This document shows positions 9,007-15,526 of a stretch of 64,000 bases of DNA, one piece after another (positions within the stretch are counted from its first letter, which is position 1; each line of letters begins with the position of its first letter). Below the pieces are notes generated by a model that saw only the letters and a list, made by a program, of their open reading frames with translations, made no database searches and was not told where the DNA came from. This stretch comes from Flammeovirgaceae bacterium. Lineage in GTDB: Bacteria; Bacteroidota; Bacteroidia; Cytophagales; Cyclobacteriaceae. A program made the translations under genes and the position numbers. The stretch spans positions 930,001 through 994,000 of the forward strand of contig CP054185.1 of the NCBI GenBank assembly GCA_015180985.1, read 5' to 3'.

Positions 9007-9456
9007 ATGAAGCGCGAAGAAACTGTTGATTACCACATTCGGTCTGCCTGGCATGCCATTTCGCGTATGTATAACCAGCAGGCGGCCCGTTACAATGCCA
9101 CCATGGCCATTGGCTTCGTTTTACTCAACATTGATGCTGAAGAAGGAACACCGGCTACTAAGATAGGCCCGTTAATGGGCCTGGAACCACGAAGCTTAAC
9201 CCGGTTGCTCAAGTCACTCGAAGAACAGGGGGCAATCTATCGCGAGGTGGATAAATCCGATAAACGTTCGGTGCGCATTTTTCTTACGGATGAAGGTAAA
9301 AAAGGCAGGGAGCGCTCAAAAGAAATTGTACTTCGGTTTAATGAGGCCGTACGCGAAGAAATACCACAGGAGAAACTCAGTGTGTTTTTTGAAGTGATTC
9401 AAAACATCAATAAAATTATTGAACGAAATACTATTTACGAACAAACGTATAGTTGA
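9007..9456 (+). CDS. MarR family transcriptional regulator of the fad operon
   Basis: A 149-residue protein with a MarR-type winged helix: recognition region PLMGLEPRSLTRLLKSLEEQGAI (about residues 57-79) and wing DKSDKRSVRIFLTDEGK. It sits directly upstream of fadN-fadA-fadE on the same strand. A MarR gene next to beta-oxidation genes is a recurring arrangement, and such regulators often release DNA on binding acyl-CoA. I infer that it represses the fad genes and itself, possibly through the inverted repeat at 8959-8970. Confidence 0.87.
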   Translation: MKREETVDYHIRSAWHAISRMYNQQAARYNATMAIGFVLLNIDAEEGTPATKIGPLMGLEPRSLTRLLKSLEEQGAIYREVDKSDKRSVRIFLTDEGKKGRERSKEIVLRFNEAVREEIPQEKLSVFFEVIQNINKIIERNTIYEQTYS

Positions 9457-9519
9457 TGGTTGTTGGTTCTTAGTCCGTAGATGAACAAAGCCAACATCCG
9501 TCAACCAACAACTAACAAC
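9451..9519. repeat. Intergenic inverted repeat between marR and fadN
   Basis: TTGTTGGTT at 9460-9468 pairs perfectly with AACCAACAA at 9503-9511, and flanking AGTTG/CAACT bases extend the similarity. The RNA would form a hairpin with a long loop. The sequence resembles the inverted repeat after fadE (15427-15492), including the AACTAACAACT core, so the two belong to one dispersed family. It could act as an RNA processing or stability element. Confidence 0.6.
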
Positions 9520-9524
9520 TACTT

Positions 9525-11924
9525 ATGAAACGATCCATCCGCAAAGTTGCTGTTCTTGGTTCAGGGGTAATGGGCTCTTCCATCGCCTGCCATTTTGCCA
9601 ACATCGGTTGCGAAGTGTTGCTGCTTGACATCGCACCGAAAGAGCTTACCGAAGAAGAAAAAGCAAAAGGACTTTCACTCGATAACAAGCAGGTGAAGAA
9701 CAGAATTGTTCAGTCATCATTTGATAAGTGTATCAAGTCTTCACCCGGCCCGATCTACAGCAAAAAATTTATATCGCGTATTACGCTCGGCAACTTTGAT
9801 GATGATCTTCCCAGGATCAAAAACTACGATTGGACAATTGAAGTGGTTGTAGAAAATCTCGACATCAAGAAGAAAGTATATGAGCAGGTAGAGAAATACC
9901 GAACGCGCGGAACGCTTATTACCTCCAATACTTCCGGTATACCAATACACCTGATGGCCGAAGGCAGAAGCGATGATTTTAAGCGCCATTTTGCGGGTAC
10001 ACACTTCTTCAACCCGCCCCGGTACCTGCGGTTGTTCGAGGTAATACCCACAGCCGATACCGACCCGGAGATAACTAAATTTTTACTCCATTATGGCGAT
10101 CTGTACCTGGGTAAAGTATCCGTACTCTGCAAAGATACGCCCGCTTTCATCGGAAACCGGGTGGGTGTATGGGGCCTTCTAAAGGTTATCGACTCCATGC
10201 GAAAATACGACCTGAATGTAGATGAAATTGACAAGCTGACCGGCCCGGTAATCGGCCGCCCAAAGTCGGCAACGTTCCGTACTTCTGATGTTGTTGGATT
10301 GGATACACTCGTAAAAGTAGCCAACAATTTATATGCAGGTTTGCCTAATGATGAAGGCCGCGAAATTTTCAAATTGCCTGATGTAGTAAACAAACTTGAT
10401 CAAAATAAATGGCTCGGTGATAAAACCGGTCAGGGCTTTTATAAGAAAGCAAAAGACGCAAAAGGCAAAACTGAAATTCTTACGCTCGATTTAAAAACAC
10501 TCGAGTACAAGCCAAAGCAGAAAGTAAAATTTGCAACACTTGAAACTACGAAGACAATCGACAACTTGCGCGATCGGTTTAAAGTATTGCTGGCGGGCAA
10601 AGACAAAGCCGGAGAATTTTACCGCGATTGTTTTTACGGATTGTTTCAATATGCATCGAACCGGATTCCGGAAATCAGCGATGAACTTTTCAGAATTGAT
10701 GATGCCGTGTGTGCGGGTTTTGGTTGGGAACTCGGACCGTTCGATACATGGGATGCACTCGGTGTAGAGAAAACCGTGCACGCCATGGAAGGCATGAACT
10801 ACAAACCCGCACAATGGGTGTACGACATGCTGGCCAGCGGCAACAAATCATTCTATAAAGTTGAAGGTGGTCAGCGCAAGTATTACGACATTCCTTCAAA
10901 GTCATACAAAGTCATACCGGGCAAAGAGGCTTTCATCATTCTTGAAAACCTGAGCGATAAGGTGGTCTGGAAAAATGCTGAAAGCAAAGTAACCGACCTG
11001 GGCGATGGGGTCATCAACTTCAGTTGGCACAGCAAGAGCTATACGCTGGGCAGTGCTGTGATTGAAGGGCTGAATAAAGCCCTTGATTTGGCAGAAAAGG
11101 ACTACCGGGGCCTGGTGGTGGGCCATCAGGGGCCGGATTTCTCGCTCGGGGCCAATCTGGGGCTGGTTTTTATGTATGCCATCGAGCAGGATTATGACGA
11201 AATCGACTTTATGGTGCGGGCTTTCCAGAATTCGGTCATGCGCCTGCGCTATTCGTCTGTTCCCGTAGTGGTTGCCCCACAGGGCCGAACCCTGGGCGGA
11301 GGCTGCGAAATGACCATGCATGCCGACATCGCAGTAGCTGCCGCAGAAACCTATATCGGCCTGGTAGAAGTGGGTGTTGGTTTGATTCCGGGCGGAGGTG
11401 GAACGAAAGAGTTTACCAAACGGGTAAGCGATCGCTACCTGGAAGGCGATGCCGAAATGAATGCGCTGCAGGCCGCATTCATGAACATCGCAACGGCAAA
11501 AGTGGCGTTGTCTGCCGAAGAAGCCCGCGAAATGGGTGTGCTGCGCGCACAAGACCGCATCGTTATTAATAAAGACAGGCAGATACTTGAAGCAAAATCA
11601 ACGGTGATTGAATTGGCCGAAGCCGGTTACACCATGCCCGTACAAGCACGCAACATTAAAGTTTTAGGCAGGGCAGGCATGGCACTCTTTGCAGCAGGAG
11701 TAAACGGAATGAAAATGGGTGGATACATCTCCGATCACGATTTGAAAATCGCTATGAAGATCGCCAACATCATGTGCGGTGGCGATTTAACATCGCCCCA
11801 GGAAGTAAGCGAGCAATACTTACTGGATCTCGAACGTGAGGCGTTTGTTTCATTGTGCGGGGAGCGGAAGACGTTGGAGAGAATTCAAAGCATTTTAACA
11901 GGGGGAAAACCTTTAAGAAACTAG
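9525..11924 (+). CDS. fadN: 3-hydroxyacyl-CoA dehydrogenase/enoyl-CoA hydratase, FadN type
   Basis: A 799-residue bifunctional beta-oxidation enzyme. The N-terminal half is the NAD-dependent 3-hydroxyacyl-CoA dehydrogenase: dinucleotide fold AVLGSGVMGSSIA at residues 9-21, TSNTSGIP and GTHFFNPPRYLRLFEVI around 130-170, then the C-terminal dimerisation domains. From about residue 495 a crotonase domain follows. Oxyanion-hole and catalytic motifs GGGCEM and GLVEVGVGLIPGGGG keep both expected Glu residues. The order dehydrogenase-hydratase is that of Bacillus FadN, the reverse of E. coli FadB. It hydrates enoyl-CoA and oxidises 3-hydroxyacyl-CoA. It is followed by fadA and fadE, the same gene order as the Bacillus fadNAE operon. 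Confidence 0.9.
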   Translation: MKRSIRKVAVLGSGVMGSSIACHFANIGCEVLLLDIAPKELTEEEKAKGLSLDNKQVKNRIVQSSFDKCIKSSPGPIYSKKFISRITLGNFDDDLPRIKNYDWTIEVVVENLDIKKKVYEQVEKYRTRGTLITSNTSGIPIHLMAEGRSDDFKRHFAGTHFFNPPRYLRLFEVIPTADTDPEITKFLLHYGDLYLGKVSVLCKDTPAFIGNRVGVWGLLKVIDSMRKYDLNVDEIDKLTGPVIGRPKSATFRTSDVVGLDTLVKVANNLYAGLPNDEGREIFKLPDVVNKLDQNKWLGDKTGQGFYKKAKDAKGKTEILTLDLKTLEYKPKQKVKFATLETTKTIDNLRDRFKVLLAGKDKAGEFYRDCFYGLFQYASNRIPEISDELFRIDDAVCAGFGWELGPFDTWDALGVEKTVHAMEGMNYKPAQWVYDMLASGNKSFYKVEGGQRKYYDIPSKSYKVIPGKEAFIILENLSDKVVWKNAESKVTDLGDGVINFSWHSKSYTLGSAVIEGLNKALDLAEKDYRGLVVGHQGPDFSLGANLGLVFMYAIEQDYDEIDFMVRAFQNSVMRLRYSSVPVVVAPQGRTLGGGCEMTMHADIAVAAAETYIGLVEVGVGLIPGGGGTKEFTKRVSDRYLEGDAEMNALQAAFMNIATAKVALSAEEAREMGVLRAQDRIVINKDRQILEAKSTVIELAEAGYTMPVQARNIKVLGRAGMALFAAGVNGMKMGGYISDHDLKIAMKIANIMCGGDLTSPQEVSEQYLLDLEREAFVSLCGERKTLERIQSILTGGKPLRN

Positions 11925-11926
11925 AA

Positions 11927-12002
11927 ATTAGACGAAAGACGTAAGTAGCAAGACTTAAGAAATTTGCTGCTTGGTCTTGCTACTTAATACTTAAGTCTTA
12001 CT
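11927..12002. repeat. ORF-less copy of the repeat framing the four-helix-bundle gene
   Basis: This intergenic stretch between fadN and fadA contains TAAGTAGCAAGAC (11942-11954) and its perfect complement GTCTTGCTACTTA (11974-11986), a 13-bp stem with a 19-base loop. AAGACTTAAG (11950-11959) can alternatively pair with CTTAAGTCTT (11990-11999). The left part (11935-11954) matches 13206-13225 downstream of fadA in 19 of 20 bases. ATTAGAC at 11927 matches the end of the inverted repeat at 13191. Confidence 0.7.
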
Positions 12003-12019
12003 ACTAAAAAAGAAAAAAT

Positions 12020-13195
12020 ATGGACGCATACATCGTAGCAGGTTTCAGAACAGGAGTAGGCAAAGCAAAAAAAGGAGGCTTTCGTTTTGTAAGGCCCGAT
12101 GATTTGGCGGCCGATGTGATTAAACATCTTGTTAAATCCGTTCCCGGATTGGAGAACAGCATGATAGATGATTTAATCGTAGGCAATGCAGTACCCGAAG
12201 CAGAACAAGGCATGCAGATGGGAAGGATGATTTCCCTGCTTGCGCTCGGTATTGATACGCCTGGTATGATTGTGAACCGTTACTGCGGAAGTGGTGTTGA
12301 AACCATTGCTATCGCAAGTCAACGCATACAGGCCGGCATGGCGGATGTCATCATTGCCGGAGGAACGGAGTCCATGTCGCTGGTTCCGGTAATGGGTATC
12401 AAAACAGCGCTCAACTATAAAATTGCTACGGAGAATCCAACGTATTATACAAGCATGGGCCTCACAGCCGAAGAGGTTTCAAAGCAATTCAAAATTTCCC
12501 GCGAAGAGCAGGATCAGTTTTCGTATGAATCGCACATGAAAGCTGCGGCAGCATGGAAGGACGGAAAATTTAAAGATGAAGTTGTTCCCATCACCGTTAA
12601 GGAAGTGTATGTGGATGAGAACATGAAAAAGAAAACGCGCGAGTTTGTAGTGGCTACCGATGAAGGTATCCGTGCGGACACAACCGTAGAAGGTTTATCA
12701 AAATTAAAGCCGGTCTTTGCCATGAACGGTACCGTTACAGCCGGCAATTCATCGCAAACATCCGATGGCGCTGCCTTTGTGCTGGTAATGAGCGAGCGTA
12801 TGGTAAAACAGCTAAACATAAAACCGATTGCGCGCATGGTGAGCTATGCTGTTGCCGGTGTTGACCCGCGCATCATGGGCATTGGCCCGGTGGCTGCTAT
12901 ACCCAAAGCATTGAAACTGGCCGGAATGAAACTGGATGACATTGACCTGATTGAGCTTAACGAAGCCTTTGCCGCACAAGCATTGGCCGTAGTGAAAGAA
13001 CTGAACATTGACCGTAAGAAGCTAAATGTTAATGGAGGCGCAATAGCTGTTGGCCACCCGCTCGGATCATCCGGAGCACGCTTATCCGTGCAGTTGTTTA
13101 ATGAACTCGGCAGACAGAAAAAGAAATACGGAATGGTAACAGCCTGTGTGGGCGGAGGACAAGGCGTGGCGGGGATTTATGAGCTTTTGAATTAG
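12020..13195 (+). CDS. fadA: Acetyl-CoA C-acyltransferase (thiolase)
   Basis: A 391-residue thiolase, the usual family length. The nucleophile is Cys89 in NRYCGSGVE, the catalytic His346 is in GGAIAVGHPLGSSGAR and the second Cys376 is in TACVGGGQG; all are intact. It performs the thiolytic last step of beta-oxidation on 3-ketoacyl-CoA. It is the second catalytic gene of the fad operon, 95 bases after fadN across a hairpin repeat. Its TAG stop lies inside the left inverted repeat of the downstream four-helix-bundle element. Confidence 0.93.
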   Translation: MDAYIVAGFRTGVGKAKKGGFRFVRPDDLAADVIKHLVKSVPGLENSMIDDLIVGNAVPEAEQGMQMGRMISLLALGIDTPGMIVNRYCGSGVETIAIASQRIQAGMADVIIAGGTESMSLVPVMGIKTALNYKIATENPTYYTSMGLTAEEVSKQFKISREEQDQFSYESHMKAAAAWKDGKFKDEVVPITVKEVYVDENMKKKTREFVVATDEGIRADTTVEGLSKLKPVFAMNGTVTAGNSSQTSDGAAFVLVMSERMVKQLNIKPIARMVSYAVAGVDPRIMGIGPVAAIPKALKLAGMKLDDIDLIELNEAFAAQALAVVKELNIDRKKLNVNGGAIAVGHPLGSSGARLSVQLFNELGRQKKKYGMVTACVGGGQGVAGIYELLN

Positions 13196-13593
13196 ACATA
13201 AGACAAAAGACGTAAGTAGTAAGACGATGCATAATTTCAAAGAGTTAAAAGTTTGGCAACTATCGAGACAACTCGTTAAAGAGATTTATGAATTGACGGT
13301 CGACTTTCCTTCTTCGGAAAAGTATGGATTGATATCACAACTTCGCAGATGCACAGTCTCAATTCCAACTAACATTGCTGAAGGTGCTGGGCGAAATACA
13401 GATAAGGACTTTGCACAGTTCTTAAACATGAGTTTGGGATCGGCCTATGAGCTTGAAACGCTTTTGATTCTTTCTTTTGATGTAAACCTGATTACTCAGG
13501 AACAATTGGATTTTTTAACGAATAGGATTTCCGAAATACAAAAAATGACTTTTGGCTTGATCAAGACGTTGCGCCAGGAGTCTTATGTCTAAT
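13191..13593 (+). mobile_element. Putative IVS-like element: four-helix-bundle ORF between perfect 14-bp inverted repeats
   Basis: ATTAGACATAAGAC at 13191-13204 is exactly complementary to GTCTTATGTCTAAT at 13580-13593. The pair frames a single 121-residue four-helix-bundle gene. The left arm includes the fadA stop codon and the right arm includes the ORF stop codon. Further degenerate copies of the same repeat family continue outside the right arm (GTCTTGATACTAATGTC, 13594-13610) and occur between fadN and fadA. The layout recalls the intervening sequences of bacterial 23S rRNA, which carry the same protein family between complementary arms. Mobility is inferred; no target-site duplication was found. 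Confidence 0.5.
13227..13592 (+). CDS. Four helix bundle protein (S23/23S rRNA intervening-sequence family)
   Basis: A 121-residue all-helical protein. Hallmarks of the family are visible: FKELKVWQLSRQLVKEIYELT at the N terminus, FPSSEKYGLISQLRRCTVSIPTNIAEGAGR in the middle and the FLNMSLGSAYELETLL helix. Related proteins are encoded in 23S rRNA intervening sequences, and a structural relative (Avd) serves diversity-generating retroelements; the molecular function of stand-alone copies is unknown. It interrupts the fad operon between fadA and fadE, and its coding region lies inside inverted repeats. No reverse transcriptase or variable repeat is present in the window, so I do not propose a diversity-generating system. 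Confidence 0.88.
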   Translation: MHNFKELKVWQLSRQLVKEIYELTVDFPSSEKYGLISQLRRCTVSIPTNIAEGAGRNTDKDFAQFLNMSLGSAYELETLLILSFDVNLITQEQLDFLTNRISEIQKMTFGLIKTLRQESYV

Positions 13594-13625
13594 GTCTTGA
13601 TACTAATGTCGAAACAACACAAAGT

Positions 13626-15428
13626 ATGGCAACCGAAGTAGCAACAACAAGCGCAATTAAAGGAGGCGAATTCCTGATCCGTGAAACGCAGGCAAATGAG
13701 ATCTTCATACCCGAAGAATTCAATGAAGAGCAGTTGATGATCAAGCAGCAATGCGAAGATTTTCTGGCCAAAGAAATCTGGCCAAGGCTGGATGAAATTG
13801 ATTCCATGAAGCACCCGGAACTGATGCCCTCCTTACTGGATAAGGCCGGTGAACTTGGGTTACTGGGCACATCCGTGCCGCAGGAATTGGGCGGCTTTGG
13901 TATGGATTTTAACACCGCTATGCTTATTGCTGAAGTGCTGGGCGCAGGCCATTCGTTTGCTGTTGCGATTTCTGCACATACCGGCATCGGTACACTACCT
14001 ATCCTGTATTATGGCAACGAAGAGCAAAAGAAAAAGTACATTCCAAAACTTGCATCGGGCGAGTGGAAAGCAGCCTACTGTTTAACCGAACCTGACTCGG
14101 GCTCGGATGCCAACTCCGGTAAAACAAAAGCTACACTCAGTGCAGAGGGTAAGCACTACATCATCAACGGACAAAAAATGTGGATTACCAACGGAGGCTT
14201 TGCCGATGTGTACGTGGTGTTTGCCAAGATAGATAACGACAAAAACCTGAGTGCCTTCATTGTGGAAAAGGCTTTTGGCGGTATTACCATGAACGAGGAA
14301 GAAAAGAAGATGGGTATTAAGGGTTCTTCTACGCGCCAGATTTTCTTCAACGATTGCAAGGTGCCGGTAGAAAATATGCTGAGCGAACGCGAAAACGGTT
14401 TTAAGATTGCCGTGAACATCCTCAACATCGGCCGGATTAAACTTGGCGTTGCTGCGGTTGGCGGAAGCAAGAAGACTATTTCAACGGCTGTAAATTATGC
14501 CAAAGAGCGCAAACAGTTTGGAACATCCATTGCCAACTTTGGGGCTATCAAGCATAAAATTGCCGAGATGTGCACCAAAGTGTTTGCATCCGAATCAGCG
14601 CATTACCGGGCTTCGCAGAACATTGACGATGCCTATAACGCTTTTGTAGCCGGGGGCATGGAACCCGGTAAGGCGAGGTTAAAGGCACTGGAAGAGTTTG
14701 CGATAGAATGTGCCATCCTGAAAGTACATGGCTCCGAAGTGCTTGACTTTGTGGTTGATGAAGGCGTGCAGATTTATGGAGGCATGGGCTTTTCGGCCGA
14801 AGGGCCGATGGACCGTGCGTACCGTGATGCACGCATCAACCGGATATTTGAAGGCACCAACGAAATTAATCGCCTGCTCACCATTGATATGCTCCTGAAA
14901 CGCGCCATGAAAGGCTCACTGGATTTAATGAACCCGGCCATGGCCGTTCAGAAAGAACTGATGTCGATTCCGGATTTCGGAGCCAGCGAAGAGGGGGGCC
15001 TGTTTGTTAAAGAAAAGAAAGTACTGGCCAACCTGAAAAAGGCCGGCCTGATGGTAGCCGGTGCGGCCGTGCAAAAGTTCATGATGAAACTTTCGGATGA
15101 ACAGGAAATTTTAATGAACCTGGCCGATATGCTTATTGAAGGCTATGTGGCCGAATCAACATTGCTACGCGTGGAAAAACTGATTGGCCAGCGAGGCGAA
15201 AAGGCTTGTGAGATGCAGAAGGAAATGGCGATGATTTACCTACATCATGCGGTGAACAAAGCAGCCACAGCGGGCCGTGAAGCAATTACCTCCTTTGCCG
15301 AGGGCGATGAACAGCGCCTGATGCTGATGGGACTGAAACGCTTTACTAAAATTGAACCCTATAACCTGAAGGAAGCCAGAAGAAAGGTGGCAAATTATGT
15401 AATTGAGAAGGGGGCGTATCCTTTTTAG
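13626..15428 (+). CDS. fadE: Acyl-CoA dehydrogenase, FadE type
   Basis: A 600-residue FAD-dependent acyl-CoA dehydrogenase. The core domains (N-terminal helices, the flavin-contacting AYCLTEPDSGSDA and KMWITNGGFADV strands, and the C-terminal helices) cover about residues 30-430. The catalytic base Glu is in RIFEGTNEINR, near residue 417. A C-terminal extension of about 170 helical residues resembles that of long- and very-long-chain enzymes and Bacillus FadE (about 594 residues). It introduces the trans-2 double bond in the first step of beta-oxidation. It closes the marR-fadN-fadA-(four-helix)-fadE run and is followed by a terminator at 15495. Confidence 0.92.
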   Translation: MATEVATTSAIKGGEFLIRETQANEIFIPEEFNEEQLMIKQQCEDFLAKEIWPRLDEIDSMKHPELMPSLLDKAGELGLLGTSVPQELGGFGMDFNTAMLIAEVLGAGHSFAVAISAHTGIGTLPILYYGNEEQKKKYIPKLASGEWKAAYCLTEPDSGSDANSGKTKATLSAEGKHYIINGQKMWITNGGFADVYVVFAKIDNDKNLSAFIVEKAFGGITMNEEEKKMGIKGSSTRQIFFNDCKVPVENMLSERENGFKIAVNILNIGRIKLGVAAVGGSKKTISTAVNYAKERKQFGTSIANFGAIKHKIAEMCTKVFASESAHYRASQNIDDAYNAFVAGGMEPGKARLKALEEFAIECAILKVHGSEVLDFVVDEGVQIYGGMGFSAEGPMDRAYRDARINRIFEGTNEINRLLTIDMLLKRAMKGSLDLMNPAMAVQKELMSIPDFGASEEGGLFVKEKKVLANLKKAGLMVAGAAVQKFMMKLSDEQEILMNLADMLIEGYVAESTLLRVEKLIGQRGEKACEMQKEMAMIYLHHAVNKAATAGREAITSFAEGDEQRLMLMGLKRFTKIEPYNLKEARRKVANYVIEKGAYPF

Positions 15429-15492
15429 TTGTTAGTTCTTGGTTTATAGTTGATGGGAGCGTCCTAACACGAATAACGTTCAACTAACAACT
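15427..15492. repeat. Intergenic inverted repeat after fadE
   Basis: AGTTGTTAGTT at 15427-15437 is perfectly complementary to AACTAACAACT at 15482-15492. The intervening TTGGTTTATAGTTGATGG resembles the repeat between marR and fadN. With the copies at 9451 and 11927, it means nearly every gap of the fad operon carries a hairpin-forming repeat. Confidence 0.6.
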
Positions 15493-15494
15493 CA

Positions 15495-15526
15495 AAAACC
15501 CGGGAGCAATTCCGGGTTTTCTTTTT
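15495..15526 (+). terminator. Rho-independent terminator after fadE
   Basis: AAAACCCGG (15495-15503) pairs with CCGGGTTTT (15512-15520) around an 8-base loop and is followed by CTTTTT. It lies 66 bases after the fadE stop and in the gap to the convergent AraC-type gene. The A-run on its left side may also let it work on the other strand. Confidence 0.8.

Follow-up and report, generated by a model that had tools for sequence, protein, structure and literature searches.

The S23 gene lodged between fadA and fadE in the window (the entire 64,000-nt stretch of DNA analysed here) is probably one copy of a widespread unit resembling the intervening sequences (IVSs) of 23S rRNA. In these units the S23 gene occupies the loop of a long hairpin built from degenerate 7-nt repeats. 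The hairpin mostly lies in sense orientation in an operon gap, immediately behind the stop codon of the upstream gene, and we infer that it is processed by RNase III and that arms and ORF are mobile. The first-pass annotation had proposed an IVS-like element living in an mRNA. By anatomy, with an S23 ORF in the loop of complementary arms and heptads as in the Coxiella IVS, the IVS-like character of the window element is well supported; the proposal as a whole is partly supported. The picture that emerges is broader than that annotation drew, with units of the IVS kind residing in messenger RNA operons and bearing 7-nt arms, an architecture that the rRNA element of Coxiella also has.

The S23 unit of the fad operon

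The window unit is framed by a perfect 14-nt inverted repeat, ATTAGACATAAGAC at 13191-13204 and its exact complement at 13580-13593, both present as the first-pass annotation had reported. When the 801-nt region 13000-13800 was shuffled by dinucleotides, a perfect inverted repeat this long or longer appeared in one of 2000 trials. The 13191/13580 pair is also the sole perfect 14-nt repeat in the window with an arm spacing of 200-700 nt, and none of 10 shuffles of the window contained one. These 14 bp are only the best-paired part of longer arms, which cover about 13191-13225 and 13580-13610 of the forward strand. The left arm (13191-13225) consists of 7-nt quasi-repeats, the flank reading TTAGACA TAAGACA AAAGACG TAAGTAG TAAGAC when divided into 7-nt units, and overlaps the fadA stop codon TAG at 13193-13195. 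The right arm (13580-13610) pairs with the left one over 13580-13593 and holds the last S23 codons and the S23 stop codon at 13590-13592, which bears out the earlier placement of the two stop codons inside the two arms. Folding of the unit as RNA gave a z of -2.6.

The ORF itself (13227-13592, forward strand) encodes a 121-aa S23 / 23S-rRNA-IVP four-helix-bundle protein, and its family membership, claimed from the start, is established by matches to PF05635 23S_rRNA_IVP (E 1.1e-39, 135.3 bits, cut-off 33.8) and TIGR02436 four helix bundle (128.8 bits, cut-off 24). Relatives with solved structures are 2gsc and 2rld, with five chains each, and the closest S23 among named records (98%) comes from a Cyclobacteriaceae metagenome-assembled genome. 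The ORF is under purifying selection, with a median dN/dS of 0.07 over the pairs with dS <2 among the 45 formed by 10 orthologous sequences including that of the window. Net charge as a hint of RNA binding gave no support (-2 for the window S23; mean of 199 S23 proteins, +1.64).

The neighbours, too, are those named in the first-pass annotation. The unit begins at the stop codon of a fadA-type thiolase (12020-13195, forward strand; TIGR01930 over cut-off) and is followed by a fadE-type acyl-CoA dehydrogenase (13626-15428, forward strand; NF058590 FadE over cut-off), with a fadB-type gene upstream of the thiolase. Three further forward-strand hairpins without an ORF lie in this region, with scan scores of 13.5 to 14. 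One, in the fadB-fadA gap (11922-12006; scan match 11944-12005; fold z -5.39), belongs to the AAGACGTAAG arm family, which is that of the window unit. The other two are heptad hairpins of the TAGTTGTT family, located between a regulator ORF (9007-9456) and fadB (9450-9521; z -3.22) and at the fadE stop codon (15422-15497; z -2.25). A scan of 464 kb of the window's genome found four ORF-less heptad hairpins at cut-off 12 and none after block shuffling; at cut-off 10.5 there were six, three of them in the fad region, versus one in the shuffle.

The window's genome (G000), a single 3.38-Mb contig, carries ten PF05635 genes. Their flanking arms differ from copy to copy (for example ATTGTAGATTTTAGATT, GGTTTAAGGTTTA and AAGCTTCAAG) and pair weakly at some sites (score 8.5 at L003; 10 at L006, L008 and L009). 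The window arm family AAGACGTAAGTAGTAAGAC, searched with up to three mismatches, gave 29 matches as against 0 for a reversed control, and the matches inspected closely all fell in ORF-less hairpins except the window's own unit. The genome thus holds ten S23 genes together with ORF-less copies of the repeat family, as the first-pass annotation had suggested checking. Its 14-mer does not survive as a conserved terminal repeat: the sequence changes between copies, and what recurs is the 7-nt periodicity and the complementarity of each arm to its own partner.

Several smaller features of this genome were recorded. Near-identical AAGACGTAAG-family heptad hairpins occur several times within about 7.5 kb at L183 (G000:C1:1360001-1375000), repeated with their surrounding sequence, and one of them adjoins an end of a 1290-nt ORF element. 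This ORF is present in three copies (L138:3817-5106, L142:7569-8858 and L151:15523-16812) with complementary ends GGGTAACGACTAAGCAACTG, and is probably an insertion sequence. At L151:6678-7076 a 132-aa ORF lies between copies of the inverted repeat GTTGTAGGCAATTTTCATT (one mismatch, score 16.5). A SAM riboswitch (RF00162, 63.5 bits; L005:269-378) precedes the cluster that carries S23 copy L005, and was the only Rfam match over gathering score in 15 S23 loci.

Arms, heptads and placement across S23 loci

For every S23 gene we scored the upstream flank against the reverse-complemented downstream flank of the same gene; downstream flanks taken from other S23 genes (swapped partners) served as the control. 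In 38 loci from own-genome and order-level searches the own-partner mean was 12.7 and the swapped mean 7.3, with 24 of 38 above the swapped 95th percentile; 29 class-level loci gave 15.7 versus 7.75 (23 of 29), and the own-arm mean is lowered in both sets by mis-framed, cut or broken loci (L097, L105, L106 and L111; L169 and L176). Of 80 named loci, 78 were kept after dropping L222 and L239 at contig ends, and scored 15.7 versus 8.6 (36 of 78). The pool of 199 loci, obtained by excluding L106, L111, L176, L222 and L239 and then L247, L254 and L262 (202 to 199), averaged 13.9 versus 7.3, with 122 loci exceeding the 95th percentile and 69 the 99th; without the three exact duplicates L188, L238 and L241 these numbers became 121 and 68 of 196. 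When sites with both neighbours homologous were removed as well, the 84 non-redundant sites remaining had an own-partner mean of 14.2 and a swapped mean of 7.0, 54 and 44 of them exceeding the swapped 95th and 99th percentiles; the own partner ranked first of 84 in 40 loci and within the top 5% in 64. For comparison, 375 control genes of the window's genome averaged 7.57, and their top three were the copies of the 1290-nt ORF.

Arms missing from ORF-carrying relatives had been named in the first-pass annotation as evidence against its reading. Arms are present in relatives, and weak in some of them (7.0 at L096, 7.5 at L091). In the pool, 75 of the 196 distinct loci were not above the swapped 95th percentile, so that arms are absent, decayed or undetected in many S23 loci. 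The heptad character recurs in the same way: autocorrelation of the flanks of 62 loci peaked at lags 7, 14 and 21 (0.39/0.40, 0.38/0.37 and 0.36/0.33) as compared with about 0.27 at these lags in control genes, and the pool displays the same period-7 peaks. Outside Bacteroidota, where scores were assigned by record title and the 95th percentile is 14.0, one record each exceeded that value from Chloroflexi (28), Planctomycetaceae (22), Anaerolineales (21), Roseimaritima (19), Nostoc (17) and Spirochaetales (15). Pirellula and one Melioribacter record stood at 14.0, and the other Anaerolineae, Melioribacteraceae and Chlorobiota records, a Rickettsiales record (8) and Plectonema (5.5) were below. 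These comparisons confirm that numerous S23 genes, of Bacteroidia and also of some other phyla, are laid out between 7-nt-repeat arms.

The units are placed in a consistent manner. The start of the left arm was located at 144 distinct loci where an arm is detectable and the upstream gene is clear. Counted from the first base of that gene's stop codon, the median start is +5 nt (interquartile range 0 to 10 in 146 loci, duplicates included), and 73% of starts fall within -15 to +10, versus 25% with a swapped partner. Neighbours were assigned by simple ORF calling, in which a spurious antisense ORF can be taken for a neighbour. On this basis, 59 of the 79 non-redundant sites with both neighbours called are in sense orientation between co-directional genes; a further 8 lie antisense within a co-directional pair, and the neighbours of the other 12 are mixed. 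Co-directional gaps account for 24,998 of 42,395 intergenic bases in a sample of the window's genome, so the distribution of bases by itself predicts about 30% sense placement. All three frames contain a stop within 50 nt in 61% of left arms, 39% of right arms and 20% of the upstream regions of control genes, whose base composition is not matched to that of the arms.

Arm type and S23 lineage co-segregate. For pairs from different genomes with non-homologous neighbours and duplicates removed, clearly similar arms made up 0.6% of 5604 pairs at <30% S23 identity, 0.5%, 2.6% and 9.0% in successive identity bins up to 60%, 23% at 60-70% (n=159) and 50% at 70% or above (26 pairs, 21 loci), a trend that is uncorrected for genome relatedness and to which such relatedness contributes. 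Before duplicate removal the share ran from 0.5 to 50%. S23 genes at different sites of one genome had similar arms in 0 to 1.4%. Nostoc L259 and Roseimaritima L250, for instance, share 69% S23 identity and TTAGCTG/TTAGCGG-type arms amid unrelated neighbours, and L298 of G010 is 75-81% identical in S23 to other genus members at a different site. From these sequence comparisons, arms and S23 gene appear to travel together. At the genome level, the heptad pattern TAGNTNNTAGNTNNTAGNT occurred at least four times in 30 of 105 S23-positive and 0 of 44 S23-negative genomes, and its reverse in 36 of 105 and 1 of 44, in counts uncorrected for lineage and with S23-negative meaning no match at E 1e-20, so that weak S23 members may exist there. 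Most S23-positive genomes also have fewer than four occurrences of the pattern.

Filled and empty gaps in relatives

The same gaps are filled in some relatives and empty in others, hairpin and empty states at the fad and mur gaps having been scored by eye. The fadA-fadE gap contains window-type S23 in G000, G001, G003, G015 and G016. A second S23 type, whose arms resemble TAGTTGTTGG or TAGTTGTTCG, is found in G004 (a short open frame), G006 and G008, and further S23 types in G010 and G017. Shrunken remnants lie between arms in G002 and G012, and a heptad hairpin without ORF occupies the gap in G007, G013 and G018. No hairpin was seen there in G011 and G014; G005 and G009 gave no clear state, and in G022 the gap measures 1011 nt. 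In the fadB-fadA gap, S23 is present in G001, G002, G010, G012, G013 and G017, an ORF-less hairpin in G000, G003, G004, G008, G009, G015 and G016, and a short gap of 40-70 nt in G005, G007, G011, G014 and G022.

The junction of murE and mraY (these names, like ftsW, murG, metH and metF, are our reading of the neighbouring genes) likewise differs between relatives. It measures 435 nt with an S23 unit in G000 versus 2 nt in G003, at 89% DNA identity here. Among 13 relatives, stop and start range from a 1-nt overlap to a 4-nt spacing in G001, G002, G003, G007, G009, G010, G012 and G016; the gap is 7 nt in G014 and about 60 nt without S23 in G013, related S23 units are found in G015 and G008, and G004 has a frameshifted unit. 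The -1 to 4 nt junction in 8 of the 10 unit-less relatives argues that no hairpin pre-existed there. Inspected for a target-site duplication, the two ends of the murE-mraY unit have, by eye, only a short AATTA similarity, with mismatches. The unit-less sites for which the first-pass annotation had proposed to look in related genomes therefore exist, at fadA-fadE in G011 and G014 and at murE-mraY in G003 and others.

In the ftsW-murG gap, G000 has an S23 unit and five of six relatives (G003, G004, G008, G009 and G016) have differing ORF-less palindromes, with none in G007. The palindrome at this site in G003 (L341) reads CCCTCACCCCGG ... GGAGTGAGGGAG and resembles a repeat common in bacterial intergenic DNA, a repeat that may be related to the heptad hairpins. 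In Mucilaginibacter the metH-metF gap is a further hot spot, in addition to those in the fad and mur operons; several genomes carry an S23 unit with TATCAAG heptads there (L206, L211, L227, L235 and L251).

Known systems and alternative explanations

The closest known system is the 23S rRNA IVS of Coxiella. As described in PMC4990558, it has 428 nt, an S23 ORF, a 28-bp stem and tandem GACAGAT heptamers, with an RNase III site at the first heptamer repeat; the authors of that paper conclude that S23p is unlikely to be produced in vivo and that the ORF is in decay. The same paper also names Leptospira for a 23S rRNA IVS with an S23 ORF and calls IVS function and origin still unclear more than 25 years after discovery. 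The window unit shares with the Coxiella element an S23-family ORF in the loop, complementary ends and a length of about 430 nt, and its period-7 signal parallels the tandem heptamers of the Coxiella 5' arm, a likeness to the Coxiella case and no formal criterion of an IVS (PMC4990558). It differs in residing in an operon mRNA gap after a stop codon rather than in a 23S rRNA helix, and in having an S23 gene under purifying selection where the Coxiella ORF is reported to decay (PMC4990558). The window unit occupies the fadA-fadE gap, and no Rfam rRNA exceeded gathering score in L001-L010.

TAACTGA and related heptamer direct repeats of Beggiatoaceae, Cyanobacteria and some Bacteroidetes, as described in PMC4679880, are likewise 7-nt units, mostly intergenic, some overlapping stop codons, with stops in three frames and with mobility considered; unlike the S23 arms they are direct repeats and mostly precede start codons. 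The terms 's23' and 'four helix' are absent from the text of PMC4679880. Our search of open-licence PubMed Central found no literature linking S23 genes outside rRNA to heptad inverted repeats.

REP palindromes and their RAYT transposases form short intergenic palindromes in which gene-less copies stand beside gene-bearing ones, and in both respects they resemble the S23 units. Such a system was set aside: Y1_Tnp had no match in G003, G016, G011 or G014 and two in G000, so that G003 and G016 carry S23 genes without a Y1 transposase, and S23 arm sequences vary between copies. Avd, the accessory protein of diversity-generating retroelements, is represented by a weak match of the window S23 to the same fold family (bAvd, 27.1 bits); it was rejected because the S23 protein falls below the bAvd and Avd cut-offs (27.8 versus 80 bits for Avd) and no reverse transcriptase (RT) was found in G000 at E 1e-6. 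At that threshold RT (PF00078) was also without a match in G008, G122 and G154, and S23 matches at E 1e-20 in G000, G008, G122 and G154 numbered 9, 6, 4 and 8. Without RT in G000 or a Y1 transposase in G003 and G016, no mobility enzyme can be named from the families searched. A near-identical second S23 copy within one genome was not found either, the best of 200 same-genome pairs among the fetched loci reaching 64%; L237 and L238, considered as recent copies, are identical over all 3348 bases and were taken as a single locus entered two times.

For the IVS-like unit we propose that co-transcribed arms would pair and be cut by RNase III, as in rRNA intervening sequences. Cutting in the arms would do little harm to the host operon and would part the upstream message from the downstream one, and stop-rich arms coming right behind a stop codon would keep the cost of the unit to its operon low. 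The S23 oligomer may act on its own arm type, and arms and ORF would move together, for the most part from one genome to another. Heptad hairpins without an ORF would then be remnants or non-autonomous relatives.

A rather unlikely alternative is that S23 merely settles in gaps tolerant of inserts, the hairpins being regulators of the usual intercistronic kind (attenuators or message stabilisers) built from slippage-prone heptamers. It would account for the ORF-less hairpins that fill the other three gaps around fadB, fadA and fadE and for the different arm families that one gap holds in different species, and heptamer arrays without S23 are in print (PMC4679880). What it leaves unexplained is that the arm family tracks S23 lineage at unrelated sites, that the TAGNT heptad pattern is repeated at least four times in 0 of 44 S23-negative genomes (1 of 44 when reversed), and that murE and mraY lie only -1 to 4 nt apart in 8 of 10 relatives without the unit.

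Two other explanations were weighed. Mutation alone, through hairpin-templated correction and 7-nt slippage, might keep functionless arms similar, the S23 gene between them being no more than an operon gene spread by horizontal transfer. Templated repair acting on quasi-palindromes could yield arms that vary yet stay complementary, as the arms do from copy to copy. We nevertheless hold this improbable, as neither the sense orientation and the start at a stop codon nor the RNase III site at the first heptamer of the Coxiella IVS (PMC4990558) would be explained by it. A conventional transposon or MITE with terminal inverted repeats, served in trans by a transposase or RT, would match the inverted repeats, the copies with and without ORF and the empty sites. 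The ten G000 copies share no termini and their flanks differ by eye, on which ground we set aside both a classic transposon and a MITE or IS with terminal inverted repeats; with the strong orientation bias and the lack of RT in G000 and of Y1_Tnp in G003 and G016, this origin is very improbable.

The IVS-like reading has a wider form, which we put forward tentatively and to which we give somewhat less than even credence: that ribosomal IVSs are a minor branch of a large and so far unrecognised class of selfish 'S23 heptad hairpins' in operon mRNAs across several phyla, inserting at stop codons and read by their own S23 through a 7-nt arm code, and that the intergenic heptamer repeats known from Bacteroidetes, Cyanobacteria and Beggiatoaceae descend from such hairpins and lack the gene. 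Many genes are annotated just as 'four helix bundle protein', and a common architecture of own-partner arms, 7-nt units, stop-codon placement and sense orientation ties them to the rRNA elements and possibly also brings in the puzzling heptamer repeats. It renders testable the reading of its own arms by S23, RNase III cutting in mRNA and movement without a known transposase. Separately, relatives of the window S23 are encoded in 29 plasmid records, most of the named ones cyanobacterial and four from Riemerella, and plasmids are a possible vehicle between species.
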